Assembly (NCBI GenBank): GCA_963971285.1 | Contig: OZ020250.1 | Span: 7,300,499-7,364,498, forward strand | DNA length: 64,000 nucleotides | Direction of reading: 5' to 3' | Source: Astropecten irregularis | Taxonomy: Eukaryota > Echinodermata > Asteroidea > Paxillosida > Astropectinidae | In this document: positions 1 through 63,237 of the stretch, in pieces | Layout: the number at the start of each line of letters is the position of its first letter | Numbering within the stretch: the stretch's first letter is position 1 | Notes under the pieces: model-generated | Database searches by the model: none | What the model saw: only the letters and a program-made list of their open reading frames with translations | What the model was told of the DNA's origin: nothing | Translations under genes and position numbers: made by a program

Positions 1-46
1 CCACGGAGAATGCTGTACTGACCGCTAGACACAGGGATTTCAAACC
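1..46 (+). CDS. Gene D exon: end of CTLD N-half
   Basis: The reading ends in ATENAVLTARHRDFK followed by a GTAAG donor at 47, phase 2. The same residues with small changes end the N-half exons at 10559 and 33031 on the minus strand. The exon is cut by the window start. Confidence 0.85.
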
Positions 47-1408
47 GTAAGAAGAATCGATTGCTTAGGCCTAAATGAGTAATAGTTGGGCAGACATTAT
101 ATTTCTACTTCTTAGGTTATTCAAACCATTGCATGGTCTCGTGCTGAAGACCTACATGACCAGGAAATACAACGATATATTAACCTGTAAGACAAATATT
201 AAGCTGTTCCCTTCACAAAACTGTTTGACCGTCTACAATAGTCTAAGTGTTTTCATGAAAGAGATCATTTGGAGTCATTTTGCTGGACATTGATTTGAAT
301 TGAACCTAACGCTCCTTGACATGTGCCAACTGTGATAATGTTAACGGTTTTAACGTAGAACTGCTGCTTTCGAACTAATTGTATTGTTTAACTTTGTCAG
401 AATAGTGACCATTGTATGAATGCTCACATTCAACAATTTCCGTTATATACAGCTTCAAACCGTACATCAATGTTTTAAAACTCTCATGTTAGATACAACT
501 ATTCCTTTGATTCCAGATTCAACGACTTCTACTGGGTTGGTCAGAACGATCGAGATGATGAGGGAACATGGAAGTATGCATCTAACGACACGCCCTCTGG
601 TGTCGAGGTTTTCCTGAACTGGAGACCTAGCCAACCAGACGGCGATACATCAGAGAACTGCATCGTGATGGATCAGGGAGGCGAGTGGAGTGACATGAAT
701 TGCAACGATGCTTACTTTGTAACCTGTAAGAAACAAACAGGTTATGGTAAGTTTACGTTTTTGAGTTGCTCGAGTTTCCCGATCCATTATGTTTTGATTG
801 TGAAAACGAGTCCTTGTTTGCAACGAGATAAGCTTACAGTTTTTCTCTAACAAAAGATTTTGTTTTTGGAAATCCAAAAAGAAACGAGAGTCTTCAAATC
901 GGTGTCAATTTGTATATTGTGATCAAATTATCTCAACTGCAAACTATTAAATCCCATAACCGTTCCAACATATTCCCATTTGTGATTTTGTTTTTCAGAA
1001 GAACCCGAAGCAAACTCTTGTGCAAAAAGTAAGATCATAGTTGTCCATATCTAGTTTTAGTAAATATGCATTGTTTCATTCATGACTTGAAAGTTCGCCT
1101 CATACATACATGTAAATGTGGAAAATATTGTTATTACCTTTATACCAGATATATCCACGCCAAGATCAGGCATATTTTCGTTCTTCGCAACGGACGCAAC
1201 TTGTCGCCCAGAAGACGTACTAACTCCCAGCTACCGTGTCAAGACCAGAGTTCAGTGCGCACGGGAATGCTCTATGGAGGCTGTCTGCCAGAGCTTCGGC
1301 TTCTTGACCTCTGGGAATGAGGATAACTGCGTGCTATGTAGCAAGGCTCTCAATATGTATGCCTTAGTGCAGAGAGCTGGAAGCGAGGTCTACAACAAAG
1401 CCCAGTAG
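1..1408 (+). CDS. Gene D (partial, 3' end): secreted C-type lectin / PAN-domain protein
   Basis: Exons are 1-46, 517-746, 999-1028 and 1149-1408; the 5' part lies outside the window. They encode the end of a CTLD N-half, a CTLD C-half, a 10-residue linker with one Cys, and a terminal PAN/apple-like domain. Each junction has GT/AG borders and the phases (2, 1, 1) match the three minus-strand paralogues. C-type lectin domains bind sugars or other ligands, often with calcium; PAN domains bind proteins or carbohydrates. Secretion is inferred from the disulfide-rich domains and from the signal exons of the paralogues. The ligand is unknown. The gene runs towards gene A, so the two are convergent with about 7 kb between their stop codons. 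Confidence 0.85.
517..746 (+). CDS. Gene D exon: CTLD C-half
   Basis: The exon follows a TTCCAG acceptor and ends at a GGTAAGT donor, phase 2 in and phase 1 out. It begins FNDFYWVGQNDR, carries a QPD motif (QPDGDTSENC), WSD in place of the usual WND, and the closing Cys pair in NCND and TCKK. QPD is the galactose-type signature in calcium-dependent CTLDs, but the altered WND makes true sugar binding uncertain. Confidence 0.88.
999..1028 (+). CDS. Gene D exon: 10-residue linker
   Basis: A 30-base phase 1-1 exon between a TTTTTCAG acceptor and a GTAAG donor encodes about EEPEANSCAK. Same-length exons are at 9008-9037, 31577-31606 and 61707-61736. Its lone Cys is conserved and may form an interchain bond (inference). 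Confidence 0.82.
1149..1408 (+). CDS. Gene D terminal exon: PAN/apple-like domain and stop
   Basis: After an ATACCAG acceptor the exon encodes ISTPRSGIFSFFATDATC and onward to a stop at 1406-1408. Six Cys (in TCRPED, QCARECSMEAVC and DNCVLC) fit a PAN/apple-like fold. It is very close to the terminal exons of A, B and C but ends in an extra Gln before the stop. Confidence 0.87.
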
Positions 1409-1468
1409 AACAATACAAGTATTCGTGTATCACCCTCTTTAACAGGAAAACATGTTTAAAGGGCTTTG

Positions 1469-1474
1469 AATAAA
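1469..1474 (+). terminator. Polyadenylation signal of gene D
   Basis: A canonical AATAAA lies 61 bases after the gene D stop codon, a normal spacing for a short 3' UTR. Confidence 0.7.
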
Positions 1475-1479
1475 CTAGA

Positions 1480-4370: not shown

Positions 4371-4379
4371 AATGCATTG

Positions 4380-5885: not shown

Positions 5886-5887
5886 AC

Positions 5888-7500
5888 TTATAATAATTAT
5901 TATTATTATGGTGTTTTATTTAATCATCATTGCAGCCAAACAGGCTGAATTCCACATGATTTCACATTGCTACAAAATACAGTAAAATACAATAAAATAC
6001 ACAGAAATAAAGATAAAATACAAGCACAAATATAAATACACAGATAAAGAGTGACCCAACACAATACACCACTGTAGAAGTAAATAGTAATTACAATGAT
6101 CAGGAATTGGATAAGTTTAATTACATGTATTTAGGAGTCTAGTAAGGAAGGGAATTGGGCTATTTTTGAAACGATTGGTTTTACACATGACTTCCCTAAA
6201 AGGCTTACGATTACGTAAGTTCCTAGATGTTGGCTTATAGTGGCAACCAGTGGTTAAACTGAGGGGATTTAACAAGTGATTGAGCAAATTTCAGGCAAGA
6301 GTCTAATCCTTCTATCACTGAGTGTTTCAAGCTGAACAATGCTAAGGGCAGTTTCGTATGTTTGATACTGAAAGCCTAGAATTAAACGTAGTACTCGTTT
6401 CTGAACTCTTTCAATTTGGTGAGTTTGGCTTTGAGTTAAAGCTGAATGCCAAACAGGTGCAGCATACTCAAGAACCGGCCGAATGTACCCTATATATATA
6501 TATATTGTAATGATATTACATCTAGGCAGGTTGAAAGGGATCAGTTGACGTATTACATATGCACTTCTTTTTTTTACAAGTTGTTGGATGTGATTATCCC
6601 ATTTGAGATTAGGCTAAATAAGAACACCCAGGACTCTCACTGACTCAATTTGTTTTAATACCTGGTTGTCAATGGTCAAATGGAGTGGCTGAAGAGTAAT
6701 TTTACCAAAATAAAGTCTCATAGCATGACATTTGTTAATATTGAGACGCGTGTTGTTTTCAATACACCATTTGTCTTAAGTATCAAGAGTGGCTTGGGCT
6801 TTAGTTTCAGTGGTCGCATCCCGCGGTGCTGATTCAGCGATTGTCATGTCATCGACATACTTCCAACATTGGGGCTCCACAGAAGCAAGAGCATCATTAA
6901 TAATAACAAGGAAGAGCACCGGTCCCAACCGTGTTCCCTGAGGAACTCCCGCAGTAACTGGGGACCAATCAGACAGACAACCACGATATCGCACACACTG
7001 GGAGCGGCCACTGAGGAAATCAGCAATCCAATGAATCAGCCAGCCACAATGATTTAACTTGCACAGTTAAGATATTACAATGGAATGGTCTACCCTATCA
7101 AATGCTTTGGAAAAATCAGTGGTAATTAAAGTTGAAACATTAGTAGGTTTATCAGCACATTTAGCAAGATAATTAACAATATCCACCAAACAGTGAGTAG
7201 TAGACATTCCTGGACGACTGCCAAATTGATTCAAGTCTAAGCAATGATTAATATCCGTTAGGAGCCATCTAGTAATGAACAACTCGGCTATTTTAGCTAG
7301 GTGGTCAGTAAGTGCAATGGGGCGCAATATTTACCTAGAGATGCTGGTCGTTCCTTAGGCACAGGGACCACTATTGTTTTTTCCACTGCTGGGGGACCCG
7401 ATGTTCAGCAAATGAACTATTCAGAATGTCACAAAATGGAGCACTGAGTTCATAGGCAAATAAATTCATCAGTCTTGCTGGAATAGCAATGTGACCCACA
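5888..7500 (-). mobile_element. Non-LTR retrotransposon (CR1/jockey-like LINE) 3' fragment, broken
   Basis: Read on the minus strand from about 7500 down, degraded frames encode reverse transcriptase blocks in the normal order. These are a segment ending VPQQWKK, RPIALTDHLAKI, FGSRPGMSTTHCLVD, TDFSKAFDRVDHS, PQGTRLGPVLFLVIIND and YVDD (the catalytic box, intact), then the thumb region around 6500-6300. Frames shift near 7330 and 7060 and there are internal stops, so it is dead. The 3' end is the ATTATTATTATT stretch near 5890, consistent with a LINE tail. The CR1-like assignment rests on motif style only; the endonuclease half is missing. Confidence 0.8.
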
Positions 7501-8405: not shown

Positions 8406-8662
8406 CTAGGCTTTGGTATACACCACACTTCCAGCTCTGTGCACTATGCCATATATGTTGAGAACCTTGCTACAGAGCACGCAGTTATCCTCATTCCCAG
8501 AGGTCAAGAAGCCGAAGCTCTTGCAGCCAGCCTCCATAGAGCAGTCCCGTGCGCACTGGACTCTGGTCTTGACACGGTAGCTGGGAGTTAGTACGTCTTC
8601 TGGGCGACAGGTGGCGTCCGCAGAGAGGAACAGGAATTTACGTGGTCTTGGTGCGGGCATAT
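8406..8662 (-). CDS. Gene A terminal exon: PAN/apple-like domain and stop
   Basis: The acceptor is ATTAG; the exon enters in phase 1 and ends at a TAG (8408-8406). It encodes the six-Cys block TCRPED, QCARDCSMEAGC, DNCVLC. It differs from the B and C copies mainly near the end (IYGIVHRAGSVVYTKA). Confidence 0.87.
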
Positions 8663-11600
8663 CTAATGAAAACAAAAACAAAATCTTGGGAGGTAAATCT
8701 GTCGTTCATATTTGGAATAGATAAATCACTCACACTCAACTATCATTTAACATTTAGCACAGAATATAATTTTGAAATAGCTCATCTCGAATATAAATAT
8801 TGCGATACGCTCAAGTGTAAAGCTCATACAAAATCCAAATCAAAGTTCAATGCATTTAGACAAATAAACGTTGGTGTTTATAATGATTATTTTGACATTT
8901 TTACTTTTTACGGATTATTTTTTTTTCCGCTGGTTTCCATACGTTTCGCTTCTATTTTGAAAATTTTGAAGAAAAAAAATCACAAATTAAGGAGTGTACG
9001 GACTTACTGTTAGAGCAAGAATCCTTGGTAGTTGGCTCTGAAATAAACCATGCAGGGAAAAATCATATAGAAAAATGTACCTGTCAGGGGTCAAAAATTG
9101 TTTAGACGTTCAACTAATTACCCAAAATAATACTTTTGCAGGGGACGCCATTTCTAAGACTCATTTCCGCTATGTCTTATTATTATAATCATGAAATAAC
9201 TACAAGGGAAACTGAAATTTTAAGTCATTGAAACGTGAACAAAGACAAATTGACTGGAGCGGGATTCGAAGTTAGTAGTTGGTAGAGCGCCTGTACGGTA
9301 TTCAGGAGGTCGCCGGTTCGAATCCCGCTCCAGTTAATTCTTCTTTGTTCACTTTTCAAAGCAATTGACATAATATCATAAAATGCGTTTTTGGCGCGTA
9401 ATAACAGACAATATCCACTGTTTTATAGGATGCTGTTGTTGTGTTCTTTCTTTCTTTCTTTTTTCTCCCCCCCCCCCTTTTTCTTGGGGGGGGGGGGGAA
9501 GGTAACCCACCTTACCCCCTTCGAATCACATATTTTGTTCAGACCCCCTCTGGCATGTGCCCATTTTCCACTGGGAATAGGCGAATTGGACAAGGGACCG
9601 ATTGCTGTTTTTTTATTTCTTAGGGACACGTTTCCAGGGAGGAGAGTATTTGTTTTTTTAAGGACCAACCATGTGAGGCATACACACCTATTTTGAGTTT
9701 ACACAGTGTAAAGTAGTTTGCACTGCAGTCTTTATCCTGAAAAAGTCCACCATCCGATTTGAACATGACCACACAATCCTGACTGCCGTCATCGTTAGGC
9801 TGCCCGTCGCGCCAGTTGAGATACACCGGAGTCTGCTCGCTGGAGGTATAATTATACACGCCTTCTTCCTCCCGATCATTTTGCCCAATCCAGTAGGCAT
9901 TGTTATTGCTGTTGGTATCAAAATCAACATTTGTTTATATATTTTTATATATGTTAACGGCTTTCAGCCTTGACAGAAATAACGTCAAACAGCATTTATC
10001 GCAGATACGAAAGCGGGATTTAAAGCCGGTGGTTTTTTTATTTGAAAAAAAAAAATATACAATTTAAGAAAAATAGGATGCAATAAAATAATTGTGTGAA
10101 TCTATTAGGAATTAAACCAAAAAATGAGATATTCAAATAACCAAAAGAGAATCTAAGTAGTTAAGTTATTGAAACGTGAACAATAAATATTGACTGGAGC
10201 CGGATTGGACCCAGTAAGCTCCGAAATACCATACCGGCACTCATAAAAACTGAGTCTATTAACCCTATGTTGATGATGTCCCTAATAGTCAATCATCTTT
10301 ATTCGTTTGGCAGTCAATGTCTATAGATTAATCAGTCAGTTTCCCTTGTGGTTATTTGATGACATTTTATGATTACGATTAAAATATCGTATCCTCTGGT
10401 ATCTCTCATATACAGTGTGTCAGATTGCAAAATTGCTAACGATGCGTGTATCTTCAATTATCCATGAGATTTAGCGGTATGTCTCATAAGTGGTTTCATA
10501 GCTTTTGGCTGCCAAACGAATAGATATAATGGACAATCTGTGAGTGCAATTCGCTTACGGTTTGAAATCCCTGTGTCTGGTTGCCAGTAGTGCATTCTCC
10601 GTAGCGTCCTCAACGTCGACCAAAGTCCAACCTTCCCCCTGGCAATACTCGACGGCCGATTCCCAGGTAAGCTCTAGGTCCGTCATGAAATAGCACATGC
10701 CCGGTTTAGCCACGCTGCCAAAGGCTCCTGGACGCAGGTCTGAACAGGCTGATGGAGGCAAAATTCGAAAAAAGACAATCAATAAAGACCTTTTTCAAGC
10801 AGGATATTTCAAAAAAGAGGCACGCTGATTTATTATGGTGAAGACGAAGAACTTACCTGTCTCTTCACGTGGTAAAGCACTACCGTTACACCTAGTCAAG
10901 GGATCTCGGGTTGGCTCTGGATCTGCAGAGATAAAATGATGCGTGTGACTAGAACGAACGCCAATGAGACATTTTCGTCATTTCCCCTAAAATAAGAAAT
11001 GCAATCTTTTTTGGGAAATGAAGGTTATATTTTTTTCTGTAACAGGTTCCAAATGATATTTTAATGGACCATCCCCACTATCCCCACACGACTGGGAATG
11101 GAGGATAGGCTGTCAGCCTCCTATTTTCAGTTTGTATTTCGTATAGAGAATGTTGTTGCAATCTGCGTCAGAAAAGCATCTTTCTCGAGTATTTTACCCA
11201 TAACAAAAATGAAATTCTCATTTCCTGCACCGTGGGATGGCTTTTGTCCCAGGACACCGGACACTGCCCACTGGAGGTATACCGGAAATCGCCTTCTTGC
11301 TAACAATAATTATGACCAATGCAATAGCCATCATGTTTGCTGTTGATTTGTGATGTACAGTAACAACAACGACGATGGCGACAGCAGTAGCAACAACATC
11401 AACGGCAACAGGAGCAGCAGCAGCAAAAGCAACAGACACAGCGCTGGCTACAGCAACGGCAACTGCACTGGCCACAACAGTAGCAGTATCAACAGCAGCA
11501 GATTTTCGTTTTCAGGAGATAGACTGAACGTACCAATTTTGAGTTTGCAAAGCGTGTAGTGCATCTCGCTGCAATCTTTATCCTGAAAACATCCATCCTG

Positions 11601-14600
11601 GTGTTTAATCATGACCATGCAGTTCTGTCCGCTTGCACCGTTAGGCTGACCGGCGTACCAGTTGAGATACACCGGGCACTGCCCACTGGAGGTATACCGA
11701 TAATCGCCTTCTTGCTCCCGATCATTTTGGCCGATCCAGTAGCCACTATTTTTGCTGTTGGAGCAAGTTAAGAAAGAGACAAGGGTATATGAAAACAACA
11801 CACTTCAGTTTTAGGTGCGCATGTCACGCGTACTTTAATGATGTCTTCAGAAAATCTACAAAAATTCCATGGGGGGACTTTTTTTGGGTTCCTGCTCGTC
11901 TGCAACGTCCTACACTTCTATAACAGCGACGACATAAAATGAGCCTAATTTCTGCAAATTGTCGGACTAGAATCACACGTATCTAATGGATAAATAAAAT
12001 GATAACAACAATATTTCGTAGGCTTATCTTCCTTACATGCATTTTTGGTGCTATCATTACTAAATGATGCGGCTAAACAACTTGACAGAGTTGCTAGGAA
12101 TAAATGCAGTAGAACATCAATACTGTTTAATATTGGGGAGAAAGGAAAACTTGATGACCAGAAGAAAAGCCTTTGAGTACATTCGTTACTCCCCTCACAT
12201 CTAAATGGCGTGCAAAGTTAACATTTAATCCAGGAGATATTTCTATTGTTAATAGAGATATCTATATTGTAATAGAGATATCTCTTTTCCGGGATTAAAT
12301 GCTAACTTTGCACGCCATACATCCCACTATGTTATAGGTTCCATGTTACGCAGTTGTCGGCTTCGTCTTCGTCTTAAGAGAAAACATAAACTTACCGGAA
12401 ATTGTCTATGTTCCACACTTCAAGAAACAGATTTTCGTCGGCGTCCTCGATGTCAACCACCGACCAGGAACCACCGGAGAGAGATCGGCAAAAATCCACA
12501 GCCGCCTGGAAGGGAAACATCTGGTTGATGGCGCTGGCGTAACAAACCCCAGGCACCAAGGGATTACTGAAGGCGGACGGCAAGATGTCACGGCAATCTG
12601 GTCAAACGAAAATAATCTTGTTTGAGTGATTAACAAGACAATCACAAAATGTGTAGGCGACACAAACCGTTTTTACTTTATCTTCAGCATACGGGTTTGG
12701 ACCCTTCTTTTACCGTATTATAAACTTTCGGTACCCGGCTTCACATTATTAAGGGTCCACTCAAGCATATAACACATATGTTTTGACGCAATATTCTTAG
12801 GGCCTCCATTAAGAGTTAACGAGTTATTCACTGATCACCGAATGCTTCGTCGTGAATATCGCTGCAAGACACGGCTGGGTTGCTTGACACTGATAAGGAG
12901 GGAATAATCAATTGGGTCATACAAATGTTATAGACTACAATACGGTTCTGAAAGGGTTCCTGATTCTTTTTTCAGTCAGGTTATTTTATTGCCTTAATAC
13001 AGAGAATATACTGACAGATAATGAATGACAAGTCTTATTTTGGTTTCAAACTAGCATTTGGTTTTCCTTTGAATGGGTTTGCGAAATGGGGGATTTTCAT
13101 GCATGCTCATGTGGGGAACCAGCACCAAAATTAAGAAAAATATAAAAAAATGAAGAGGCAAATTTGACCCACACAAATGGTTTGGCAAGTGAATCACACC
13201 ACCAGTTGAGTTAAAGGAACATATTCGGCACAATAAAAAGCCCATTGAGGAGGAAAAGTTCTGTCAGAAAACCTATATTAACAACCCAAACTTTGTGAGC
13301 ACAAATCAATTGGGTTACTGCTCTCAGTTACCTAGATGACATCACAGTTTTACTCATGAATATGGAAATTCTACTTAGCATACAAACCTAAAAAAAAAAT
13401 ATGTTGTTAACCCTGAAACAATGTGAGGAAGTGGGTAAAATCACAGACGCCATAAAACAGTTTGCTTTTTTGGCACATGTTCAAGCCATAATATTTATTT
13501 TGCACAGACCCTTTAAGTTAAAGTTAATATTGATTCCGACTCGAGTGGATATATCAATGTTTAAATCCTTATAGAGATATTTTGTCCAATCAGATGATTA
13601 TCGAAATTTTTAAACTGGAAACAAACAGTGTAAAGCTTTTGTGTGTAAGAACGCTATATAGATACCTTTAAAGGTACAATACATAATTGGTAAAGTTTCA
13701 CAGGACAACACATATATTTTGTCTGATCAAACATGTACATGAAATAATAAAACTGTGAACATTTGAGCTCAATCGGATGAGTCACGAGAAAATAGCGAAA
13801 ACCCGACTAAATTTTTCTTATAAAACATGAAGAATGGTTTTGATCTTACCCCGAGATCAAAACTTTTTTGGTCTTTGTTTTACTAATTTCTGGATAAATA
13901 CAGCATTTCAGGTGGAAATATTCAAACGGTATGTTTCCACCAGCACCATCTTCATACTTTGAGTGAAAGGGGATAACTAAAACAACTCAAGTGAGGGTGT
14001 CCTTTATGTTTGTTCCAAAAATCGTTCGGACGAACGATCTTTGGAAAAGACACTAAATCTTGATTTCATTGAAAAACCCAGCATCTGATGAACCAAGATT
14101 TCCCATGGTGACTGTTTGCACTGTTTACGAACTGTTGAGTCCATTTTCTGTCTCAAACTCAATAAAAAATGTGTGGAGAACTTGCAAATCCTATATGCTC
14201 CCTTTAAGTTATCATTATTATAACACTTATAACTATAGTTTCACAACGGCAAAATTGACATTAAACAAACGGTCGATAGCATCAGTTATCACATAATCTT
14301 AATCGAATCTAATCTTATCGAATAATATATTATCATATAATCAAATCTCTTATCAAATAATGATACACGAAATTAAGAAGCAAACTGTAAAATGTATCGT
14401 TAAATGAATATTGCAGGGCGTGACGGCGGGGGGGGGGGGAGTGGCGCGAAGGGCAGGGCAGGGCAGTGGTTTCCATTGTCAAAAACTAAGTTTTGTACAT
14501 ACTAAAATCACCTTGAAATTAAATAATCTGAGGTGCTTTGTATTCACAGCATGGGAATGTATGCCAATGTTTAATCTTTCAAGTATTAAACTTGTTAAGC

Positions 14601-31175: not shown

Positions 31176-31432
31176 CTATGCTTTGTTGTAGACCTCGCTT
31201 CCAGCTCTGTAAACTAAGGCATACACGTTGAGAGGCTTGCTACAGAGCAAGCAGTTATCCTCATTCCCAGAGGTCAAGAAGCCGAAGCTCAGGCAGCCAG
31301 CCTCCATAGAGCAGTCCCGTGCACACTGGACTCTGGTCTTGACACGGTAGCTGGGAGTTAGTACGTCTTCTGGGCGACAGGTGGCGTCCGCAGAGAGGAA
31401 CAGGAATTTACCGGGTCGTGATGGGGATATAT
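31176..31432 (-). CDS. Gene B terminal exon: PAN/apple-like domain and stop
   Basis: It enters in phase 1 after an ATACCAG acceptor and ends at a TAG at 31178-31176. It encodes ISPSRPGKFLFLSADATC, QCARDCSMEAGC, DNCLLC and VYNKA, with six Cys. It is almost identical to gene C over the whole exon. Confidence 0.88.
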
Positions 31433-40400: not shown

Positions 40401-43400
40401 CAAAGAAGAATGGAAGTGGCCAGAAATGGCATCAACTGGATGAGAGGAAAATTATTTACAAAAAGTTGCACTTTTAGGTATACAGTGTCTAGCTGTGCGT
40501 AACCCATTGTAGACCCAAACAATGTCGCCCAATGCAATATAGCGCATTGTAAGTTCAGTAACAACCTGTATACCTAAAAGTGTAACTTTTGGTTTTGTAC
40601 CTTTTGACAAACAATGTTGTGTGCATTGAACAGTGTTGAGTCATTTGCATCAAGTAGGGCATCAAAATGCAGCTTAAGATGTGCTCTAAACACTCATACT
40701 ACTCATATCACCACAAACCGATTAGATTTAGAGGGGTCGGGCGTCAAAATCAACGAAAGTTACTTTTTGTGAACCCTTTAGTAAAGGAAGTACATGGCTT
40801 GCCCAAAGGAGCACACATATAGGTCAGGCAAATACAGTGCAAATGTACGATAGAAGCAGGGTTCTTGCAATGGATGGGAGAAGACGTGAGGTCGTATGTC
40901 AGACAATGTGATGCAATGCGCATTAACGAAGTCATCTGCCAAGGCTCGGAAAGCTTCGCTTCAGCATTACGCTGTCGGTGCGCCTATGTAGCATGTAGCT
41001 TTGGACATACTGGGCCCCTCTCGAGACAGGTCAAGTACGTATTAGTTGTCGAAGAATACCCAAAACCCGACGGGGAGGTAGAAATGGTAGAGATGGCGTC
41101 TAGAGTTTTTGTCGGAGTTCAGCTGCAGGCTCGGTTTCCACATCGAATTGCATTCAGATCAGGGACGCAATTTTGAGTCAAAAAAATATTTTTCGCTTAG
41201 AGTATCCGAAAAACACGCACAACTCATATAATCCCAAATCCGATGGAGTGATACAACAGTTAAATTGGGCCTTATTATGAATGGTTTCCTTTATGATTAC
41301 TCCTCGTCCTCATAAGCATGACTTGGACGAGAAGTCGGCCTTGGCAACGTTTGCATACAGAGCAACACGACACAAGTCTACTGGAGAGACACTTATAAAA
41401 CACGAAAACGTTATGTCGGAAAGAGTATATGCCGTTAGCCTGGCGACTAGAAGAAGTGGAGAGGGTAAAGAAGTGGCGTAGACGATAGCATTATCTTCAA
41501 TGAACTTGCACAGAATTGTTCACAGCCTGTTGTCCTGTACCGATGAAGATTATCAATGTGTTTTACCAACAGAGAAACAATAAGGAGATGATTGAATGTC
41601 TGAAGTGTGGTGGAGAATTTCTACCATATCGAAGTCGTGGCGGCACCTGGAGGTGGAACATGGTCCGAATTTATACTACCGAAGTCGTTGATGAATACAC
41701 AACGCAACAGCAGGCGGGATAACCTCCGGCATCATTAATTACTTGGAATGTTATCCAGATAACCTGAGTGAGGTATCTTACATCAAGGAGAAGTATGTTA
41801 GCAGGAAAAGCCGCAAGATGATACGTGGATGGGACTCCTGGATGATCGATACGGCTGGTGGAGCTGCCCAGACTGAGCTTGCTTCCTCGGCGTTCATAAG
41901 TTAGACCACTCGTTGACGTCGGTTGAGGATGTTAATGTTGATTTTATGAGAACATTAAAACTGCAAAGCTCATTCATCCGATCTTACTGAGTACGAACGA
42001 AGTATTGGGAGCCATTATCATCACTGCCTCGATCTCACTTTGTTATTCCGGTCTACCGATACAACGTTAGCGTTGTAGTTCACTCAGAGGTTGGTATGCC
42101 TTCGCATTATTGTTTTGACCATGGCTTTTGTGCGGACGTTAAAGTTTGTGACCGGGCAAGCCTCCTACAACTTGTATGCCTCGTCAAATGGGGAATGTAG
42201 CCTTAATACAATGCCAAATATGGGGCTTATACCGCCTATCAGAAAAAAAATGTCTTTACATCGGACATTGTTAGCTGAACAAAGGACCGGAGGCGTATGT
42301 TAATATGCGCAACCACTATTCGACTGCTGCACATTCATTATGTGCCAAATGAAAATGTGAAACTGATACACAAACAAATTTAAAAGCTTGAATGAATATT
42401 TACATGAAACCTGTATTAAATTGTAAATCAATGTAAATCTGCACCCGTCTTGAATCGAGTAGCTGACATGGACTCGTTCGCAACTGAGGGCAGATCTTTC
42501 AAGTCGGAATTCCCTGACAGAATTGTCGCAAAGTAATTACGAGGCTCTTTGATAAAGTACGATATGAATCAAGACATTGCTCATAATGCATGTATGCAAT
42601 ATATTGAATCTGCATCGTTTTAGTTTTTCAGTTGACCAATTGTAGAATAGGCCAGAGATTGCGACTCCGTTATCCGGATTTAGCTATTAGGAAATTTAAT
42701 GTTGCCACTGAGTTATGTGATTGTATCATTGTATTAACAAATCAGTATTGTTTATATACGGCATCATTTATAAATGAATTGTTTAAAATAATAATTTTAC
42801 TCATTACCTCTGTATTTGTTTTCAAACAAATTGTACAAGTGAATGTACAGTGTAGACATGTACGGTGCACAGTAAATGTGCGATGTAGATGTAACTTTTA
42901 CGTGTATCTACTATATAAGCGTTAAACATTAATAGCGCAGCGTGAACATTATAAACAATTCGAACTGAATGACGAAATTTATTTTACGAACGCAGTCATC
43001 AAATTTGTGGAGCCCCTTAGGGACGGGTTAAATGTTGAATTAAAAAGAAGTATTCCTCTGAAATGATATAGCTGCGGTCTGTTCATAGTTTGATTTGATA
43101 AAAAAACAAACCCGTACAATTTCCAACTCAATTTATCATTGCAATAGCAATAGAAAAAGAGCGAATTTGTGATTATTTTGTTTTCTTCATATAAATAATG
43201 GATAAATACAGCATTTCGGGCAGAAACTATATGTTTGTACCAGATCTATCTTTATACCTTGTAAGCTATACGTAAAGCTGTGAACGTTTCTTTTTTGGTT
43301 TTCACCTACCAACGTATGGTAGTAGGGAAAGGCTAATTCAATTATGAGTGAGTGAGAAACTGTGGTAGTGCCACCTATTGAGGACCCTTTGTATGACTCT

Positions 43401-52400: not shown

Positions 52401-54444
52401 AAACATATAAAAAAGAAAGAAAAAAAAGGTACACTACCGCCATACTCAAATCCTGGTCGCGCCATGTAAGGCCACCTAATCGTTCAATTTATGGCATGAC
52501 TAATTGGTCCGCCATTCTTCAAAATTACAAAGACTCCATTAGGTAGTTGCATAGAGCACGTAACATCGATTTTCCCCACTAATTGATGGCTCGGGCCCGA
52601 AGGTTCAGGTTGAAACGCTAGAAGTGTATCTGATTCAGCAGTCTACATGACTACGTAGTAAACAACTTCTAAACCAAGGGTCTAACAATATGAGTTTCAG
52701 ACACCTATAATCAGTGGCGTCACCAGACTTTTGAGTCTGGGGGGCACAAGGGGGGCACTAGCAATTGTTGGGGGGGCACTACAATAATATATATTGTATT
52801 TTTTTTCACCAACCCAAATCTCAAATGGGGGGGCACGCGGGGGGGCACGAGGTTTTCCAGGGGGGGGCACGTGCCCCCCCCCCCCCTGGCCCCCCCTTGG
52901 CGACGCCACTGCCTATAATACTCCGATCCAGTAGGCCACGCCCACCATGGCAACGTCCAAGCAACGACGCACACGCACACGCACCCAACATGTCACGATC
53001 GCCTAGTCTAGTTTCCTGCCGAAAGATTCCCTGACGACTCTTATTAAAAATCTTGGGTCAGGTATCGGCTACGGTTAAAAATAGAACATGGCACAGCTGT
53101 CATGTCTGCGCAGGCGCGGAAGCTAGTTTTAGAGTTTGGCGAGATTCCATTTTAGTAATCATTTTTGCACTTTTGCAAGCACATGCAAAGAGTTCAAAGA
53201 GTGGGGGGTAAAACAAACAACAAACTCCTCAAAAGTGCTCCTCAATAGGAAGAGTACTCTGTTGTATTTGGACAATAAGTATGTTCTACTTGGGCTAGCT
53301 TTGGTACGGAATTAAACATATTTACATTAACTGTCTTTCCCTCGTGTGACCTGTCAAAAATAGCCGACAGTCAACGTTACTATCCGAAGTTGGACGAAAA
53401 CGCGTCCGTAAAAAGTCAAAAATTGACTTTTTTGGTCACGTGACCCTCCACTACACGTAGCCGATATCGGAACCTATATTTGACAGACGATAGTCGGGAG
53501 CTTTTTGGGTCCGGGATCCAGACTAACGATCGCCAACACGCGAAGAATTACATACCCTCAACGACCGAAAGCGCTGTACTCCATTGGAGTTTGGTTTTGG
53601 AAAAGGCAAAAAATCCACGTTTAGTATCAGCCAGGGCATCGAGAGTCATAATTATAATGAAAATATTATAAACGCCGCTTGACCATGGTTAAGGATATAA
53701 GTTGGGTTTGTAAGAGAATTGCCTTGTACATACAAAACAAAAGTAGACTCAACGAAAAGTGTGTAGTAAAGAATACAACATCCACAAAATGGCGGTTAAA
53801 TAACATGTTGTGATTGGTCAATCTGTCAAGAGGCGTGGCCTACTGGATCGGTGTATTAATGAGTTGTAATATTATTGATTATTTATAAATGTAAATGCAG
53901 TGACGTGGACACACTGGCAGATACAAAAAATGGTGATGCAGTATAGAGACTCGGGCCAGAAAACGATATTTGTTTTTGATGCATGCAATTAAGGAGACTG
54001 GTATTGATACGTGCAGTAGGTTAGGCGAGTCAAGCAGGCTAACCGGAGGCCACTCGGGAACTAATGTCGACAGATCGACAAATTGTGTATGTTTTTTGAC
54101 TCGGGTGCCAATTTTGTTTTAGGGTTAAAAATATACAAATAACTTGCAATACTAGGTATTATATTCTTAAGGTCGTTTATTTACTGAAGCATTTGCAACC
54201 GATGGACATGTTTTCCTGGCAATTTCCGTATCCATAATACACAATTGTTTTCGTTGGTGATTTTAGAAGAAGAATGAAACAGGTCGAAATACCAAAATGG
54301 CTTCAGTATAATCATAACTCGAGTTTAAATGGGAGGGGGAAATCGGGAAGAGAACTTACCAAACTGTTTCTTGCCTGGCACTACCATTAGAGATAAAGCG
54401 AGGACCAACCAGCTAAGAGAATGCACACCCCACATGATGCTCAT
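31176..54444 (-). CDS. Gene B: secreted protein with signal peptide, three CTLDs and a PAN domain
   Basis: Proposed exons in order are 54444-54360 (signal), 36312-36063 and 35421-35186 (CTLD1), 35065-35009 (19-residue linker), 34616-34415 and 34120-33900 (CTLD2), 33410-33345 (22-residue linker), 33220-33031 and 32697-32477 (CTLD3), 31606-31577 (10-residue linker) and 31432-31176 (PAN, stop). The total is 1815 bases, 604 residues, with all phases agreeing. CTLD1 has QPD, CTLD2 and CTLD3 have EPN, so galactose-type and mannose-type signatures are mixed in one chain. The WND position is FDD, FHD and WKD. An extracellular pattern-recognition or adhesion role is plausible but unproven. The first intron (about 18 kb) is full of transposons; placing the signal exon here is inference. 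Confidence 0.75.
31577..31606 (-). CDS. Gene B exon: 10-residue linker
   Basis: 30 bases, phase 1-1, TTTCCAG acceptor and GTAAG donor, encoding EEPEANSCTK. It differs from gene D only at one residue. Confidence 0.83.
31705..31726 (+). repeat. Poly-G run absent from the paralogous copy
   Basis: About 15 G in a row, whereas the equivalent place in copy 2 (near 61840) has only short G runs. A recent expansion or an assembly artefact. Confidence 0.5.
32080..32476. other. Gene B intron, nothing recognised
   Basis: This part of the intron between CTLD3 and the linker has no counterpart in gene C. No repeat or exon was identified. Confidence 0.45.
32477..32697 (-). CDS. Gene B exon: CTLD3, C-half
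   Basis: A CCACAG acceptor leads to LNNYWVGQNDREVEGKW, then EPNGGTSENC, KWKDVDC and FICKKRIG. EPN is the mannose-type signature and WKD replaces WND. The donor (ATAG before GTTCGA) is weak; the phase-1 end is set by the paralogues. Confidence 0.85.
33031..33220 (-). CDS. Gene B exon: CTLD3, N-half
   Basis: A TTTCAG acceptor leads to ACSDLRKDAFGSAAKPGNCY, then WESAVDYCQGEGW and RHRDFK before a GTAAG donor (phase 2). It corresponds to the second CTLD of gene A. Confidence 0.88.
33345..33410 (-). CDS. Gene B exon: 22-residue linker
   Basis: 66 bases, phase 1-1, encoding DPEPTRDPLTRCDGSTVLPE and two more residues, with a TTGCAG acceptor and GTAAT donor. The first 12 residues are identical to gene A. 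Confidence 0.82.
33900..34120 (-). CDS. Gene B exon: CTLD2, C-half
   Basis: A CCCGTAG acceptor leads to KNDYYWIGQNDRELEGDY, then EPNGAGNENC, RFHDVPC and FTLCKLKTG. EPN is present and WND is FHD. The donor is GTGGGT, phase 1. Confidence 0.87.
34415..34616 (-). CDS. Gene B exon: CTLD2, N-half
   Basis: A TTACCAG acceptor leads to DCRDIMPSAFSNPFVPGVCY, then FQAAVDFCRSLPNGSW and WNRDNF before a GTAAG donor (phase 2). It is nearly identical to 12396-12597 of gene A. Confidence 0.88.
35009..35065 (-). CDS. Gene B exon: 19-residue linker after CTLD1
   Basis: 57 bases, phase 1-1, with a TGTACAG acceptor and GTAAGC donor, encoding about ETVPSCPGLPEESSTEVYG. It has the one Cys typical of these linkers. 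The gene C linker at 62366-62410 may be its counterpart, but the sequences are not clearly alike. Confidence 0.72.
35186..35421 (-). CDS. Gene B exon: CTLD1, C-half
   Basis: A TTTACAG acceptor leads to RASKFWIGQNDMKTENVW, a DDSSNECNRT loop with an extra Cys and an N-glycosylation sequon (NRT), then QPDGNRRQNC, MFDDRRC and FLCKVKITSG. The donor is GTATG, phase 1. Its partner is gene C at 62999-63237. Confidence 0.87.
36063..36312 (-). CDS. Gene B exon: CTLD1, N-half
   Basis: A CCCTTAG acceptor (phase 1) leads to a short Ser/Thr/Asn-rich N-terminal stretch, then VSCSDIHVEAFGNQTLKPG, VCYLASD, ARTFCQGLG and VADIEDAVENQLI, ending at a GTAAG donor in phase 2. It is the longest N-half (250 bases). 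An NQT sequon is present. Confidence 0.86.
37595..37930 (+). mobile_element. LINE 3' end fragment
   Basis: The reading LNLSKWGYADAADTTCECGD followed by QIMQHLLRCPLF matches the Cys/His motif at the C-terminus of many non-LTR reverse transcriptases. It is followed after about 100 bases by GATAAATAAATATTGAACC, a plausible LINE tail. It sits between the protease and RT pieces of the gypsy remnant. Confidence 0.6.
38145..39375 (-). mobile_element. Second Ty3/gypsy fragment, minus strand, internally deleted
   Basis: On the minus strand, in order: the RT C-terminal end at 39369-39142 (LKLNHKKFRLRLVEVTYMGQ), a connection region near 39090-38950 (SRYLPRLAE), a ribonuclease H part at 38848-38618 (RIEKGCLCLALSYETFDQLF, then PKRLHRVL) and the integrase C-terminal tail at 38519-38260 (QYDKSAKPLSELQIGQPV). 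The integrase core is missing. Its position between two parts of the plus-strand gypsy remnant suggests a later insertion. Confidence 0.75.
40455..40597. mobile_element. Small foldback element inside the gypsy remnant
   Basis: The arms AAAAGTTGCACTTTTAGGTA and TACCTAAAAGTGTAACTTTT are inverted, separated by about 90 bases. It interrupts the ribonuclease H to integrase part of the retrotransposon. Confidence 0.65.
41720..43180. other. Gene B intron 1, unidentified
   Basis: This may include the 3' end of the gypsy remnant, but no matching LTR was found upstream. No exon of the lectin family or other domain was recognised. Confidence 0.4.
43195..43480 (-). mobile_element. TTAA-type element copy, decayed
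   Basis: GGATAAATACAGCATTTC, AACTATATGTTTGTACCAG and TATACGTAAAGCTGTGAACG are reverse matches to the family blocks near 14950 and 30280. Confidence 0.5.
43679..46316. mobile_element. Composite repeat element bordered by inverted GGGGTAARTTGAGCC words
   Basis: GGGGTAAATTGAGCCA at 43679 pairs with GGCTCAACTTACCCC ending near 46313. Between them are a 52-base tandem pair (TTTTCAACGGAAAAGGTATT, 43791-43870), a TTCTTC tract, the two block arrays at 43940-45400 and a TGACGTCATCA-rich region with ACTTCCGGT/ACCGGAAGT palindromes (45540-46030). No protein domain is recognisable. Confidence 0.5.
43940..45410 (+). repeat. Array of about 130-base units in two blocks
   Basis: The unit contains GATTCTTTCACCAAAAGT, AATGTTAGGCAAGGTCTTTC, GACCTCTACTTCCGGTCAAA and CAGGAAGTAGCTCCTCATTT. 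Copies begin near 44150, 44270 and 44400 in block 1 and near 44868, 44998, 45127, 45257 and 45387 in block 2. Each block opens with the same header of about 190 bases (GCGGCACTTTGG to ATCTTTAAAAATCAAC, starting near 43950 and 44677), so there is a higher-order duplication. Confidence 0.85.
46361..48657 (+). repeat. 2.3-2.4 kb tandem unit, copy 1
   Basis: It starts ACTGGTCCAGTGATACATGT and runs through AGCATATCACACTCAACA, GGCACGTACACGTGTAG and GTCAAGAGGCGTGTCCTACT to the next copy. Within it, TACACCGATCCAGTAGGC (near 47830) is inverted as GCGTGTCCTACTGGATCGGT (near 48171), giving a hairpin of roughly 370 bases. Open frames in it are not conserved as proteins. Confidence 0.85.
48658..51074 (+). 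repeat. 2.3-2.4 kb tandem unit, copy 2
   Basis: It starts CACTGGTCGAGTGATACATG. The part around 48360-49110 repeats at 50780-51530 at an offset of 2417 bases with very few differences, so copies 2 and 3 have exchanged sequence or duplicated recently. Confidence 0.87.
52712..52911. mobile_element. G-rich hAT-like MITE, second copy, exact 8-base target duplication
   Basis: The ends CAGTGGCGTCACCAG and TTGGCGACGCCACTG are inverted, with CCTATAAT directly before (52704-52711) and after (52912-52919). Copies 1 and 2 of the surrounding tandem unit have a single CCTATAAT at this point (near 47821 and 50243), which serve as empty sites. Confidence 0.88.
53004..53525. mobile_element. MITE with TAGTCT ends and exact 9-base target duplication
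   Basis: The left end TAGTCTAGTTTCC pairs with the right end GGATCCAGACTA. ACGATCGCC lies directly before (52995-53003) and after (53526-53534). The interior matches 20418-20837 in the opposite orientation. There is no transposase frame. Confidence 0.82.
54360..54444 (-). CDS. Gene B first coding exon: signal peptide
   Basis: The reading is MSIMWGVHSLSWLVLALSLM and then VVPGKKQF, a typical short basic-hydrophobic signal peptide with a likely cleavage near PG. It ends TTTG before GTAAG in phase 1. The start at 54444 is chosen because it aligns with the gene A exon at 27176; the frame is open further upstream to an ATG at 54618. Connection to CTLD1 at 36312 is inferred. Confidence 0.72.
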
Positions 54445-55210: not shown

Positions 55211-55217
55211 TACTTAA

Positions 55218-55459: not shown

Positions 55460-55469
55460 TTAAAAAGGC

Positions 55470-56340: not shown

Positions 56341-56344
56341 GGTT

Positions 56345-56535: not shown

Positions 56536-56539
56536 TATT

Positions 56540-57885
56540 GTAATGTTATCTACTATAACTGAAACATGTATTCTAAAATTGTATTTTAGGGGTCAAGTAG
56601 ATGAAGAAGGTCAAGGTCAAATAAAGTCTAGACAGGGTCAAAGGTCAAATCAAGCCAATAAAACGTTTATAATTATAATACATTGATGCCGGAATAAATA
56701 CTACTGTAATCAAGTAAACCCTACATTACCAATGTCAGCTTCCTCCTGTATTGAGTAGACAAACTACCACCATGGGAACTAGCGGGGCAGGTTACCTCCA
56801 CATTAACCCCGAATGAATAACGAGCATTTACGAGCCTCAGTGAAGTTCCAACACCTATTTAAATCCTTACCCAGAAAGTATCTTTGGCGGTGATAATAGT
56901 AACATATTGTGCAGAAGTCTATGGGAAAACTCCCACAATACCCCGTCAACGGTTATTGTTGATATCATCCTTAATGTGAAACTTCGGCTGCCAACATAGA
57001 TCATTCATTGATAATAGTACGTCAATCATCATGTATCATATACATAGCGTGCCGCTATTCTTTCATGGCGGTGCCATCAAAATGAGAAGATGAAACGCAG
57101 CTTTCGTGACATTTTTATTTTACATGTAATGAAATGATACCTTCTGTTCATCTGAGGCGAAACCAACGGCAAGTCATTGGCTGTAAATGACTGTTGTTTA
57201 AAATGGACCAATCTGATAATATTAGATGTTGAATCGCTAGTTAAAACCATACCATGTAACATGTGGAATATAAGCCTTTCAATTCAAAACCGATCATTGA
57301 GTGTAAATGGCAGTTAATAAAATCGATACAAGGATGTTCCAGCCTGAAAATCAGAAGGGCTACCGGAATTTAGCCATAAGTATCAAAATGTTTCATGAGT
57401 ATGAACACAACTCTCAAGAAGCAGTGAACCATTGCTCTACACAATATATTCAGAACAAAAAAAAACCATTGTTATCATACTGTTAACACATTAAACGCAA
57501 TGTAATGATCATGGTGTCCATTAGGTTAGTGTATATACATGAACGTAGACGCACGTGAATGTTTATAAAACATTATGAACAACTACTATAAACCTATCTG
57601 TTGATTAGTTATCGGTGCTCCTGAGTAATTTCTTTTTCTCGTTAATTATCTGAGGAGCAGGGTTATTTAATGCTCTGTACGGCAACTTCATACGGTAACA
57701 AAAAAAAAACATCCATGTCTAACGCCGCCGTTTGAACACACGAACCGTCTTATTTGGTCTGAACTCTGGACTTTCAGAACGTCCAAGAAATTACGCAATT
57801 TCCAGTAAAGTACACCTTATTTGCAACCTTTATCATGAAAAACGTCTGCTTTCGGTTTTCTGCAACATCAGACACCCCAACTCCG
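56540..57885. other. Intergenic, nothing recognised apart from a short AGGTCAA repeat
   Basis: AAGGTCAAGGTCAAA and AGGGTCAAAGGTCAAA near 56610-56650 form a small direct repeat. No gene or transposon border is visible. Confidence 0.45.
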
Positions 57886-57897
57886 ACAACAACTCCG

Positions 57898-57946
<49 letters not shown>

Positions 57947-57961
57947 CGACAACGACGACAC

Positions 57962-58011
<50 letters not shown>

Positions 58012-58064
58012 CCAACGACAACGACAACGACAACGACAGCGACAGCGACAGCGACAACGAAATA
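57885..58064 (+). repeat. Compound microsatellite (AAC, GACAAC, GACAGC)
   Basis: AAC triplets pass into CAACGA hexamers and end in GACAGC units. Thr-rich, Asn/Asp-rich and Leu/Ser-rich open frames across it arise from the repeat and are not genes. Confidence 0.9.
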
Positions 58065-60489: not shown

Positions 60490-60627
60490 ATAGCGCTGCG
60501 CACTTGCGCTAAAAATAGCACCGAACCTCAGACAAACATTGCAACGTGGCCATGTAAACGTGTGGTGAGTGGGGGAATGTGTGCGCGTGCGTGCATAGTG
60601 TGACGTCATTAGTGCGGAACGCTATTG
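60490..60627. mobile_element. Insertion unique to duplication copy 2, with short inverted ends
   Basis: Copy 1 reads GTCACTCAATTGCAATGG without a break near 30992, whereas copy 2 has about 138 bases between CTCAAT and ATTGCAATGG. The insert starts AGCGCTGCGCAC and ends GTGCGGAACGCT, imperfect inverted repeats, with a 2-base AT duplication. A small MITE is likely. Confidence 0.65.
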
Positions 60628-60772
60628 CAATGGTATAGCAAAATTGACTTTTCAAGACAATCAGTAATTGCACGGTGATGCATGAATGGATTGCAATGAA
60701 ATTTTGTCAAAATTTACTCAGTGAGATATTGAATTCAATAGACTAAGAAGCTGAAAACATACAATTTATTTT

Positions 60773-60795
60773 CATATATATATATATATATATTT
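60773..60795 (+). repeat. TA dinucleotide repeat
   Basis: About ten TA units; copy 1 of the duplication has no such run here. Confidence 0.7.
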
Positions 60796-61306
60796 TTGCA
60801 AATGGGTATCGTCTATTGGGGACACACTGTACATGAACCGAAGAAAGCCAGCAATAACATATCGTGGCAGGCTTAATTAATTTCTGCTTTATCCTTATTT
60901 CAGCAAGTCTTTGGAATGTATTAGCATTTGATGGACACTTGTAGAGTTCATCATAATTCAATTTCACTTTTGCATCTGATAAAGAAACTACGGGTAATTT
61001 CATGGCATTATTTATCGGCATACGGCGAATAAGACATCGTATGAAATATGGGACTCAGTGTCGATGTACGTTTATTAGTTTTTATACTCTCTAAATTGTG
61101 CGCATAGCTTATTAACTTTCTAGTATCTAGGACGTACGATGATATGCTCAAGTGATGAAAAATGTGGCTTACTAGTGTCTCCAATAACACCAAACTAATA
61201 TTATTGATGCTTGCAAAAAATAAATGAAGGTCCGCAGGTGCAACAATGAAAGCAAAATAATGCTGAAAGAAAACACTGCAGTTAATGGGATTCAAATCAA
61301 GCTTTC

Positions 61307-61563
61307 CTATGCTTTGTTGTAGACCTCGCTTCCAGCTCTGTACACTAAGGCATCCACGTTGAGAACCTTGCTACAGAGCACGCAGTTATCCTCATTCCCA
61401 GAGGTCAAGAAGCCGAAGCTCCGGCAGCCAGCCTCCATAGAGCAGTCCCGTGCGCACTGGACTCTGGTCTTGACACGGTAGCTGGGAGTTAGTACGTCTT
61501 CTGGGTGACAGGTGGCGTCCGCAGAGAGGAACAGGAATTTACCGGGTCGTGATGGGGATATAT
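61307..61563 (-). CDS. Gene C terminal exon: PAN/apple-like domain and stop
   Basis: Same borders and length as gene B. It encodes ISPSRPGKFLFLSADATC, then HPED where the paralogues have RPED, QCARDCSMEAGC, DNCVLC and VYNKA before TAG. Confidence 0.88.
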
Positions 61564-63237
61564 CTGGTATTAAAGTAATAACAATACTTCTGTTTCACTT
61601 ACAAGGAGAACTTCCTACTATGATCTTGAGCAAGTGAACTTTCGCTTTGGTTAGGAGCACTGCATATTGCTAAAACAAGAACTAAATAACTATAGTGTGC
61701 ACTTACATTTTGTACAGGAGTTTGCTTCAGGATATTCTGGAAAACAAAAATATCAATGGGAATAGGTTGAAAACATTCGTAGAATATAAGTATTTGATGG
61801 AAGTTGAAATGTTCTGTCCTGGAATATGATCCAGCACGGAGGGTTGGGGGTTTGTGGAGGAGTGACGTCCGGTTCAGACCGCCTGTTGGATCATCATATG
61901 AAAGGTCGCCGTTATCTGCTTAGGAACACAATCTCCCGATGCAGTTAGCTCAGCACGTATCACGTGTGCGGTATATTTTGGCAAGATGTATGCGTCTAGA
62001 TTCATGCCGTGAGACCAATATCTCCCTGTCCGATTTTATGTCGCCTCTCGTTTAAGATATCTGTGATGTGCGATGTCCCTCATGCGCCACCGTTCTTTGC
62101 CGATTTGCACATAATAAACATCGTTCAGTTTATGATGTGAATGCTGTGGATATTGTAATGTGCGCCCAAAGTGTCATGTGTCATGGCGACCATAATATCT
62201 CGCCTAATAATAATATCTCAACACTATAGCTGCACAGCGTCCCACTATCTTCGTTTCGAGTGCAAATTCCCTATTATTACACAGGAAAAACTAAAGGAAA
62301 ACACGCCCATACTATTTTGATTCATGCGACTTGTACTGCAGCCGATGCAAAGTGGTAATACTTACTATCAGGAGTCCCAGTAGTTACGGGAACAGAAGAT
62401 ACTGCTACTTCTGCAAAACAAAGATATGCAGATCACTTTGTTTTATATACATGGAATGTAGGTGGACACAATTATGCATATGGACGCAATCCTTACAAAT
62501 TTGAACGGTTTTCAGTACTCGGAATATTAAAAAAGGCTCCAAATGATTATTTTTTTAAGATATGTATTCATTTGTATGGGTTACTTGGAATACAGTCTCG
62601 TATTATGCGGAATATCAGCAGAAGCAATGTATTATTGTCAATTATCTTCAAGGCTGCGCTGCAATGTGAACTGTTAGAATTACAATAATTAAAAGATCTT
62701 CTGTCAAGATACATTTTTTTAACTGACCAGAGGGGAAAGTTTAGGCAGTTGAGAAATTAATTCTAATGACGCCTTTGTTATCGACATTGTTTTGTAGTGG
62801 AATACTTCCTTTATTGGCACAAATTGCGCCTTAATCGCTAGCCCATCAATGTGTCGGCTACCGATCAACCGACCCGGGGTATAGACCCCACCCCCCCTAA
62901 AATAAATGATATAAAATGAACAAATACAAAGTAACGATAATTGTCACTATTACATAAACGTTTCCGCCCAACATGTTCCACTTCCCCAAGTAACTCACCA
63001 GATGCGATCTTAACTTTGCATAAGTAGTTGTAAATGCGATCACAGTATGCATCATGAAAACCCCCAACGTAACTGTGGTAATATATCACGCAGTTTTGTT
63101 CGCGGTCTCTGTCAGGCTGGCCAGATGCCCAGTTGAGATACACTGTGCGGTTACTCTTGTTGGAGCTATCGTCCACATATCTCCAAACATTATCTGTCTC
63201 CATTTTATTCTGGCCGATCCAGAATCTAATGGCACTC
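61307..63237 (-). CDS. Gene C (partial, 5' end outside): C-type lectin / PAN protein with a shortened linker region
   Basis: Visible exons are 63237-62999 (CTLD C-half), 62410-62366 (15-residue linker), 61736-61707 (10-residue linker) and 61563-61307 (PAN, stop). The CTLD is the counterpart of gene B CTLD1, with QPD. Nothing like CTLD2 or CTLD3 lies between it and PAN, so this gene passes from a CTLD1-type domain almost straight to PAN. Phases agree throughout. The N-half exon and signal peptide were not found in the remaining 760 bases of the window. Confidence 0.8.
61707..61736 (-). CDS. Gene C exon: 10-residue linker
   Basis: 30 bases, phase 1-1, encoding about EYPEANSCTK. One residue differs from gene B. 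Confidence 0.82.
62366..62410 (-). CDS. Gene C exon: 15-residue linker
   Basis: 45 bases between TTTTGCAG and GTAAGT, phase 1-1, encoding about EVAVSSVPVTTGTPD. It is Thr/Ser/Pro-rich and, unlike the other linkers, has no Cys. It is called on splice signals, phase and position only. Confidence 0.62.
62999..63237 (-). CDS. Gene C exon: CTLD C-half
   Basis: A TTCACAG acceptor leads to SAIRFWIGQNKMETDNVW, then SNKSNRTVYLNW, QPDRDREQNC, GFHDAYC and YLCKVKIASG before a GTGAGT donor (phase 1). Compared with gene B CTLD1 it lacks the extra loop Cys (NKSNRT against NECNRT), keeps the NRT sequon and has one extra codon. Confidence 0.87.

Follow-up and report, generated by a model that had tools for sequence, protein, structure and literature searches.

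The window analysed here is a stretch of 64,000 nucleotides of the Astropecten irregularis genome (contig OZ020250.1, called C14 below; C14:7300499-7364498, window position being contig position minus 7300498). It holds all or part of four neighbouring genes, lettered by position, whose predicted products share one layout: a signal peptide, a row of C-type lectin-like domains (CTLDs) and a PAN-like domain. Gene A is on the plus strand at the left edge; genes B (8.4-27 kb), C (31-54 kb) and D (61 kb and beyond) are on the minus strand. Detailed gene models were built for the window plus 120 kb of flank per side (304 kb), where eight genes, P1, P2, A, B, C, D, E and F, carry 3, 4, 9, 2, 3, 4, 3 and 3 CTLDs, respectively. 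A first-pass annotation had described four neighbouring genes with the same exon kit and differing numbers of CTLDs. Both points held: each of the four PAN exons in the window is joined to CTLDs, and the numbers are nine, two, three and four once flanking DNA is added. Its counts were right for the gene with two CTLDs (8.4-12.6 kb) and for that with three (31-36 kb). The plus-strand gene at the left edge, credited with 'at least one' CTLD, has nine, and the minus-strand gene at the right edge, credited with 'probably one', has four, the window edge having cut both genes (its gene letters are matched to ours by coordinates). The protein lengths that it gave, 426 and 604 residues, become 397 (about 393 with another acceptor) and 553 residues in our models.

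In all eight models a CTLD is encoded by two exons, 5' and 3', split by a phase-2 intron, and phase-1 introns separate the modules from each other, from the signal-peptide exon and from the PAN exon. A cassette bounded in this way can therefore be gained or lost without a break of the frame. Gene C has a signal-peptide exon at 54360-54444 (phase-1 donor GTAAGT; found by homology, with a weak genome-wide match of E 0.25), then CTLD I (5' exon 36063-36312, 3' exon 35186-35421, QPD motif), CTLD II (34415-34616 and 33900-34120, EPN), CTLD III (33031-33220 and 32477-32697, EPN) and the PAN-like last exon at 31176-31432. Gene A enters the window with the end of the 5' exon of its ninth CTLD, of type III (1-46), followed by the 3' exon of that CTLD with a QPD motif (517-746) and the PAN-like last exon with its stop TAG (1149-1408); the other eight CTLDs and the signal peptide lie to the left (to -38225), and the model of 20 exons runs without a stop for 1424 residues. 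Gene D, with four CTLDs in the order I-II-III-I, contributes its PAN-like last exon (61307-61563) and the 3' exon of its fourth CTLD, of type I (62999-63237); the 5' exon of that CTLD is at 64068-64317, and the three further CTLDs are also to the right of the window.

Gene B begins with a signal-peptide exon at 27083-27173 (phase-1 donor GTGAGT); this exon and its counterpart in gene C lie 14.5 and 18 kb, respectively, upstream of the first CTLD. The first CTLD of gene B is of type II (5' exon 12396-12597, 3' exon 11534-11754). The second is chimeric, joining a type III 5' exon (10559-10748) to a type II 3' exon (9688-9908), and the PAN-like last exon is at 8406-8662. Two relics lie beside these exons on the same strand. 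At 12831-12887, upstream of the first CTLD, is what is left of a type I 5' exon, and at 11125-11332 is a type II 3' exon that has decayed and contains a stop, the remnant of a lost module. Because of these relics, gene B looks like a shortened gene. Its two counterparts in the cluster, which like gene B follow a plus-strand gene with nine CTLDs, are those with PAN exons at 6787831 and 7693928, and they have six and five modules. As for the models in general, the acceptors of four exons were missed by the script, and in-phase AG sites were read by eye for all four; P1, P2 and F also have, as read by eye, a better in-phase acceptor for their type III 5' exons. Seven of the eight models are free of internal stops, and the third CTLD of P1 carries an in-frame TAG at its end. 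The signal peptide of gene E has to begin at the second Met.

The lectin domain is confirmed by Pfam. Three exons taken alone matched PF00059 (Lectin_C) at 35-44 bits against a cut-off of 22.6, and no exon match at E<1e-3 appeared in any of five triplet-shuffled copies of the window. The full models of genes A, C and B, the three of the eight that were scanned with Pfam, contain 9, 3 and 2 separate Lectin_C stretches and no other domain above cut-off; three unrelated Pfam families in the gene A model each fell below their own. The genes share with collectins and selectins the CTLD, which those proteins use for glycan recognition, but the three full models have no collagen, EGF or sushi domain, in agreement with the earlier statement that the layout is not that of a collectin or selectin. 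In the last exon, six cysteines are invariant in all seven aligned copies, and the PAN/apple fold is a six-cysteine fold. Two such exons alone passed PF00024 (PAN_1) at 22.8 and 27.0 bits against a cut-off of 21.4, but the three full-length models scored 17.8, 17.2 and 20.9 bits, all below it, so that the PAN label is likely but weak in sequence scores. Solved structures searched by sequence with the PAN-like exon gave nothing relevant. Of the two domain assignments put forward for a Pfam check, then, Lectin_C passed, and the C-terminal PAN-like domain passed in exons alone and fell short in full-length models. Secretion, put forward as possible in the earlier annotation, is predicted from a hydrophobic signal-peptide-like first exon, read by eye, and from the stop that ends the frame at the end of the PAN-like exon in all eight genes. 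A hydrophobicity search for signal peptides gave clear candidates just for P1 and F; homology to that exon gave the others.

The four genes are part of a far larger family. In the whole assembly (a single genome; 475.7 Mb, 168 contigs), which beyond the 304 kb was searched for 3' exons, PAN exons and signal-peptide exons, the PAN-exon query found 42 places. Twenty-six of them are clustered within about 1 Mb, C14:6.69-7.70 Mb, so the local set described at first is real in itself and belongs to a cluster that extends well beyond the window. Genes with a PAN identity of at least 74% were taken as core genes, which leaves out eight PAN exons at 33-50% identity. The 34 core genes confirm that the family has expanded within one genome; eight of them lie outside the main cluster, on C11 (6), on C17 (1) and at C14:16.88 Mb (1). 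Together the core genes hold at least 174 modules, counted as one per 3' exon, with positions copied by hand from the PAN-exon and CTLD 3'-exon searches and grouped into genes by strand and distance. The searches with type I, II and III 3' exons scored the best 150 of 511, 755 and 670 candidates, respectively, and the module counts are thus lower bounds. By this count, one core gene has no CTLD, one has 1, one has 2, four have 3, twelve have 4, four have 5, two have 6, four have 7, three have 9 and two have 12. A genome-wide Lectin_C scan placed none of its best 150 of 1282 candidates inside the cluster, where the domain is divided between exons.

The eight more distant PAN-like exons lie on C29 (four places) and at C14:12307651, C14:16787473, C14:16940821 and C16:3582384. 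CTLD exons were found upstream of seven of them, which suggests that the pairing of CTLDs with a PAN-like domain probably predates the cluster.

The CTLDs fall into three types, I, II and III. In a tree of 28 modules a single branch set each type apart from the rest (support 100/99, 88/95 and 100/98), with the chimeric second CTLD of gene B outside all three groups; the tree program warned of the long branches joining types I and III. Gene E, a near copy of gene C, was excluded from the tree and from the substitution-rate, motif and loop analyses given below, and P1, P2 and F entered the tree and the rate analysis with type III 5' exons that were a few residues short. Genome-wide, modules assigned to type I matched the query of that type at 44-100% identity (60-100% in core genes), those assigned to type II at 58-100%, and those assigned to type III at 54-100% apart from one at 43%; weaker cross-hits between types were moved to other types or dropped. 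Along the 34 core genes the types follow one another in a cycle. The order I>II>III>I is kept by 128 of the 141 neighbouring pairs; when modules were shuffled within genes 10,000 times, it was kept by 53.9 pairs on average and by 79 at most. Of the 13 pairs that deviate, 8 are II>I and 5 are II>II. All five II>II pairs occur in gene B and its two counterparts; gene B, whose second module is the III/II chimera, is the only one of the three in which 5' exons were read. The module that precedes the PAN-like domain is of type III in 15 core genes, type I in 11 and type II in 7, and one gene has none. The cyclic order suggests that the proteins grow in triplets, up to 12 CTLDs.

How single genes change can be seen by comparing genes C and D, which are copies at 84-91% identity. 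They differ by a stretch of 2.6 kb with one type I cassette, present in D and absent in C. Since I-II-III-I-PAN is the commonest minus-strand layout in the cluster (6 of 14 genes), loss of the 2.6 kb in the line of C and E is likelier than gain in D. The C/D breakpoints share no common repeat beyond matches of 10-14 bases, which is the chance level. We also considered the fourth CTLD of gene D as a recent copy from gene A, an idea weakened by the same prevalence of I-II-III-I-PAN.

The CTLD and PAN exons are coding sequence under constraint. The ratio of nonsynonymous to synonymous substitution rates (dN/dS), summed over pairs, was 0.46 for both the 5' and 3' exons of type I, 0.35 and 0.38 for those of type II, 0.35 and 0.38 for those of type III, and 0.61 for the PAN exon; the 3' exon of P1's third CTLD, excluded for the stop that it carries, does not enter these values. 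Few pairs had a dN that exceeded dS: 1 of 36 for the type I 5' exon, 1 of 45 for type II, 1 of 36 for type III, 2 of 21 for PAN and none for the 3' exons. Positive selection at the ligand loop was considered as a candidate and found no support, the loop window ranking 38 of 74, 33 of 73 and 52 of 68 by dN/dS in the three types. In C-type lectins, EPN marks the mannose type and QPD the galactose type, and WND together with them makes up the sugar-binding motifs. At the tripeptide position, the 28 modules have QPD in 9, QPN in 9, EPN in 4, EPD in 2, and HPN, QPS, EPA and KPA in one each (the first module of gene D was read by eye). At the WND-like site, 27 of the 28 modules retain the Asp.

From these observations we consider it fairly probable that the genes belong to a large family arranged in tandem, that their predicted products are secreted multivalent lectins, and that unequal recombination between in-frame cassettes has remodelled them. 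Each protein would consist of a signal peptide, a row of CTLDs and a PAN-like domain. The two-exon cassettes, with phase-1 flanks in the eight gene models, would be gained or lost in frame. As judged from exon positions, three diverged cassette types would be arranged in the cyclic order I-II-III, so that genes would differ chiefly in the number of cycles, up to four. The variation would most likely arise by unequal recombination or deletion between homologous cassettes, both within and between genes. The product is likely to be a secreted multivalent lectin, whose cassettes carry different sugar-binding tripeptides and whose avidity or reach may scale with the number of cassettes. Its most likely use would be the humoral recognition of glycans, whether microbial or self, and the immune part of this proposal is a guess of moderate weight. 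The cluster suggests that protein length can evolve by whole in-frame triplets of diverged lectin domains inside block-duplicated genes. It also offers a natural series of 2, 3, 4, 5, 6, 7, 9 and 12 CTLDs with related tails, in which valence and domain order could be compared with glycan recognition. If the variation serves defence, it would add another way in which an invertebrate deuterostome can diversify its innate repertoire. No account of such genes appeared among the papers listed in searches of open-licence full texts.

Several points weigh against this proposal. Nothing connects these genes with immunity. None of the seven exon classes has a dN/dS above 1, and the ligand loop has no excess of amino-acid change, neither of which favours an arms race. 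The Asn of WND is missing in all 28 modules, and a textbook EPN or QPD is present in 13 of the 28 alone; binding of calcium and sugar is thus not assured, and the module set as a whole lacks the combination of EPN or QPD with WND that characterizes calcium-site-2 sugar binders. The genes are predicted from DNA, and the models would change if further exons lay between the signal peptide and the first CTLD or if the transcripts were alternatively spliced. The signal-peptide query matched 24 places in the genome, 14 at E<1e-10, and the other ten are individually weak (E 0.008-0.74). The genes with 12 CTLDs are read from their 3', PAN and signal-peptide exons. In addition, some genes look damaged: 3 of the 26 cluster genes have a stop in 3' exons (PAN 7197896, 7113486 and 7682794, the last being one of the three genes with nine CTLDs), the gene with PAN 6896785 has a signal peptide and no CTLD that we could find, and the gene with PAN 7628805 has one CTLD and no signal peptide found.

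The same architecture may instead have a structural use, in that the proteins would be multivalent, sticky lectins in tube-foot adhesive, in body mucus or in the egg coat, and we regard this as a serious possibility, though short of an even chance. Secreted proteins with many CTLDs would also fit cross-linking, and C-type lectins are mentioned in some papers on temporary adhesion in marine animals. The lack of positive selection, whether by exon class or at the ligand loop, fits such a use at least as well as it fits an arms race. On the other side, the three full models contain no domain above cut-off besides Lectin_C. A more far-reaching idea on the immune side is that of a germline-variable lectin repertoire, in which individuals would differ in the number of genes and of CTLDs per gene through unequal exchange of in-frame triplets, and cassettes could be skipped by splicing to give combinatorial recognition. 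We hold this to be rather doubtful. If true, it would mean combinatorial recognition proteins in an animal without antibodies. Variation between individuals at this locus could be read directly by long reads.

Some of the copies are nearly identical. Genes C and E agree at 98.2% over 14.4 kb, and P1 and F mostly at 98-99% with stretches at 92%; 4.9 kb are at 99.7%. Such blocks point to recent duplication, and haplotypes laid end to end could account for part of them. If two haplotypes were joined in this way in the assembly, gene number would be inflated in part of the cluster, an effect that the long blocks of C/E and P1/F and the several PAN and CTLD exons paired with identical scores would match. 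The copies are not collinear, however: the copy of C is 77 kb away, that of P1 276 kb, and the equal-scoring PAN exon of gene B type 385 kb. Moreover, the signal-peptide regions of C and E are 87% identical as against 98.2% for the bodies, and PAN identity to that of gene C is 74-94% for 32 of the 34 core members. We therefore judge an inflation by haplotypes unlikely.

The long arrays could also be several adjacent shorter genes and not single genes with 9-12 CTLDs. The models are made without RNA, and introns between some modules are as long as about 6 kb. The signal-peptide exons tell against such a division. The test set was 23 exons, namely the 21 of the 24 query matches that lie in or beside the main cluster and two signal peptides of the P1/F subtype. 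All 23 are outside the CTLD arrays, and for 23 of the 26 cluster PAN exons exactly one signal-peptide exon lies upstream of the array; with the homology query, none was found for PAN 6694260, 7147793 and 7628805. A single PAN exon closes each array. Gene A is open through its 20 exons, and the gap between its sixth and seventh CTLDs, about 0.2 kb, has no room for a PAN exon and a signal peptide. In the two genes with 12 CTLDs, whose PAN exons are at C14:6844394 and 7556438, no stop was flagged in the 24 3' exons. Since signal peptides are never inside the arrays and one lies upstream, the arrays of 9 and 12 CTLDs look, as far as exon predictions go, like single genes, and a division into shorter ones seems to us very improbable.

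That the genes are invertebrate members of the membrane mannose-receptor family, as might be suggested by CTLDs in a row and by a gene C CTLD that, of all solved structures, best matches macrophage mannose receptor 1 (E 1.3e-14), can practically be set aside, because the three full models have no ricin-type or fibronectin-II domain (Pfam, E up to 0.01), the frame stops at the end of the PAN-like exon in all eight genes, and the structural matches are generic, with 97 PDB sequences reaching E 0.001 or better, the best 60 of which were listed. The family (MRC1, MRC2, PLA2R and DEC-205) resembles the sea-star genes in having several different CTLDs in one protein. Its members have 8-10 CTLDs, preceded by N-terminal cysteine-rich and fibronectin-II domains and followed by a transmembrane segment. 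The sea-star genes, in contrast, end as modelled in a PAN-like domain, though a further exon joined by alternative splicing is conceivable; their three full models lack the non-CTLD domains of that family, and their three CTLD types come in cyclic order and in numbers that vary by gene up to 12.

As a process, this may resemble NBPF/Olduvai (DUF1220) in human, where the HLS1-HLS2-HLS3 triplet has expanded; there too a diverged triplet is multiplied in frame in tandemly duplicated genes, although the domain and lineage are unrelated, and presumably the function as well. Among echinoderms, the sea-cucumber CEL-type lectins belong to the CTLD family and have a one-CTLD layout; CEL-I (PDB 4wqq) was among the solved matches listed. 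The spicule matrix proteins of sea urchins have a single CTLD with acidic repeats (PMC5460417), unlike the CTLD arrays described here. The same paper reports a notable absence of C-type lectins from the skeletal proteome of the sea star Patiria miniata; of the two weak candidates there, one (PMI_018577) contains two CTLDs (PMC5460417).

Several repeats accompany the genes. In the first intron of gene C, at 36579-41173, frames resemble by eye the zinc-knuckle and integrase-like pieces of what we take to be a Ty3-type long terminal repeat retrotransposon; the 98.2% block of C and E also covers this region. Between genes A and B, at 6272-7330, minus-strand frames resemble by eye a reverse transcriptase that is presumably of the long interspersed nuclear element type. 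The hexamer CGACAA is repeated about 30 times at 57884-58060. To the right of the window, the long first intron of gene D contains tandem units of about 2.6 kb, about 99% identical, from +74844 to +94520 (C14:7375342-7395018). In gene F, the intron between the first and second CTLDs spans 24 kb and has two dense tandem arrays, at +149230 to +152733 and +160935 to +163533, with periods near 90 and 51 bases.

Elsewhere in the assembly, the mitochondrial contig (C168; 16,335 bp) has, by eye, the order COX1-ND4L-COX2-(ATP)-COX3-ND3-ND4-ND5-CYTB on one strand, with ND6, ND1 and ND2 on the other. Starfish and sea urchin mitochondria differ by an inversion of 4.6 kb with ND1, ND2 and 16S, and brittle stars group with starfish in this respect, as stated in a review (PMC3308324). 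The gene order thus marks the animal as an echinoderm and makes a sea star most likely, a brittle star being less probable. A further COX1-family match on a small contig (C131:32162-33484) is an open frame of 552 residues without stops; our guess is that it is bacterial, from a possible contaminant or associated microbe. A partial COX1 with seven TGA codons on a large contig (C25:9951047-9952018) is probably a nuclear copy of mitochondrial DNA.

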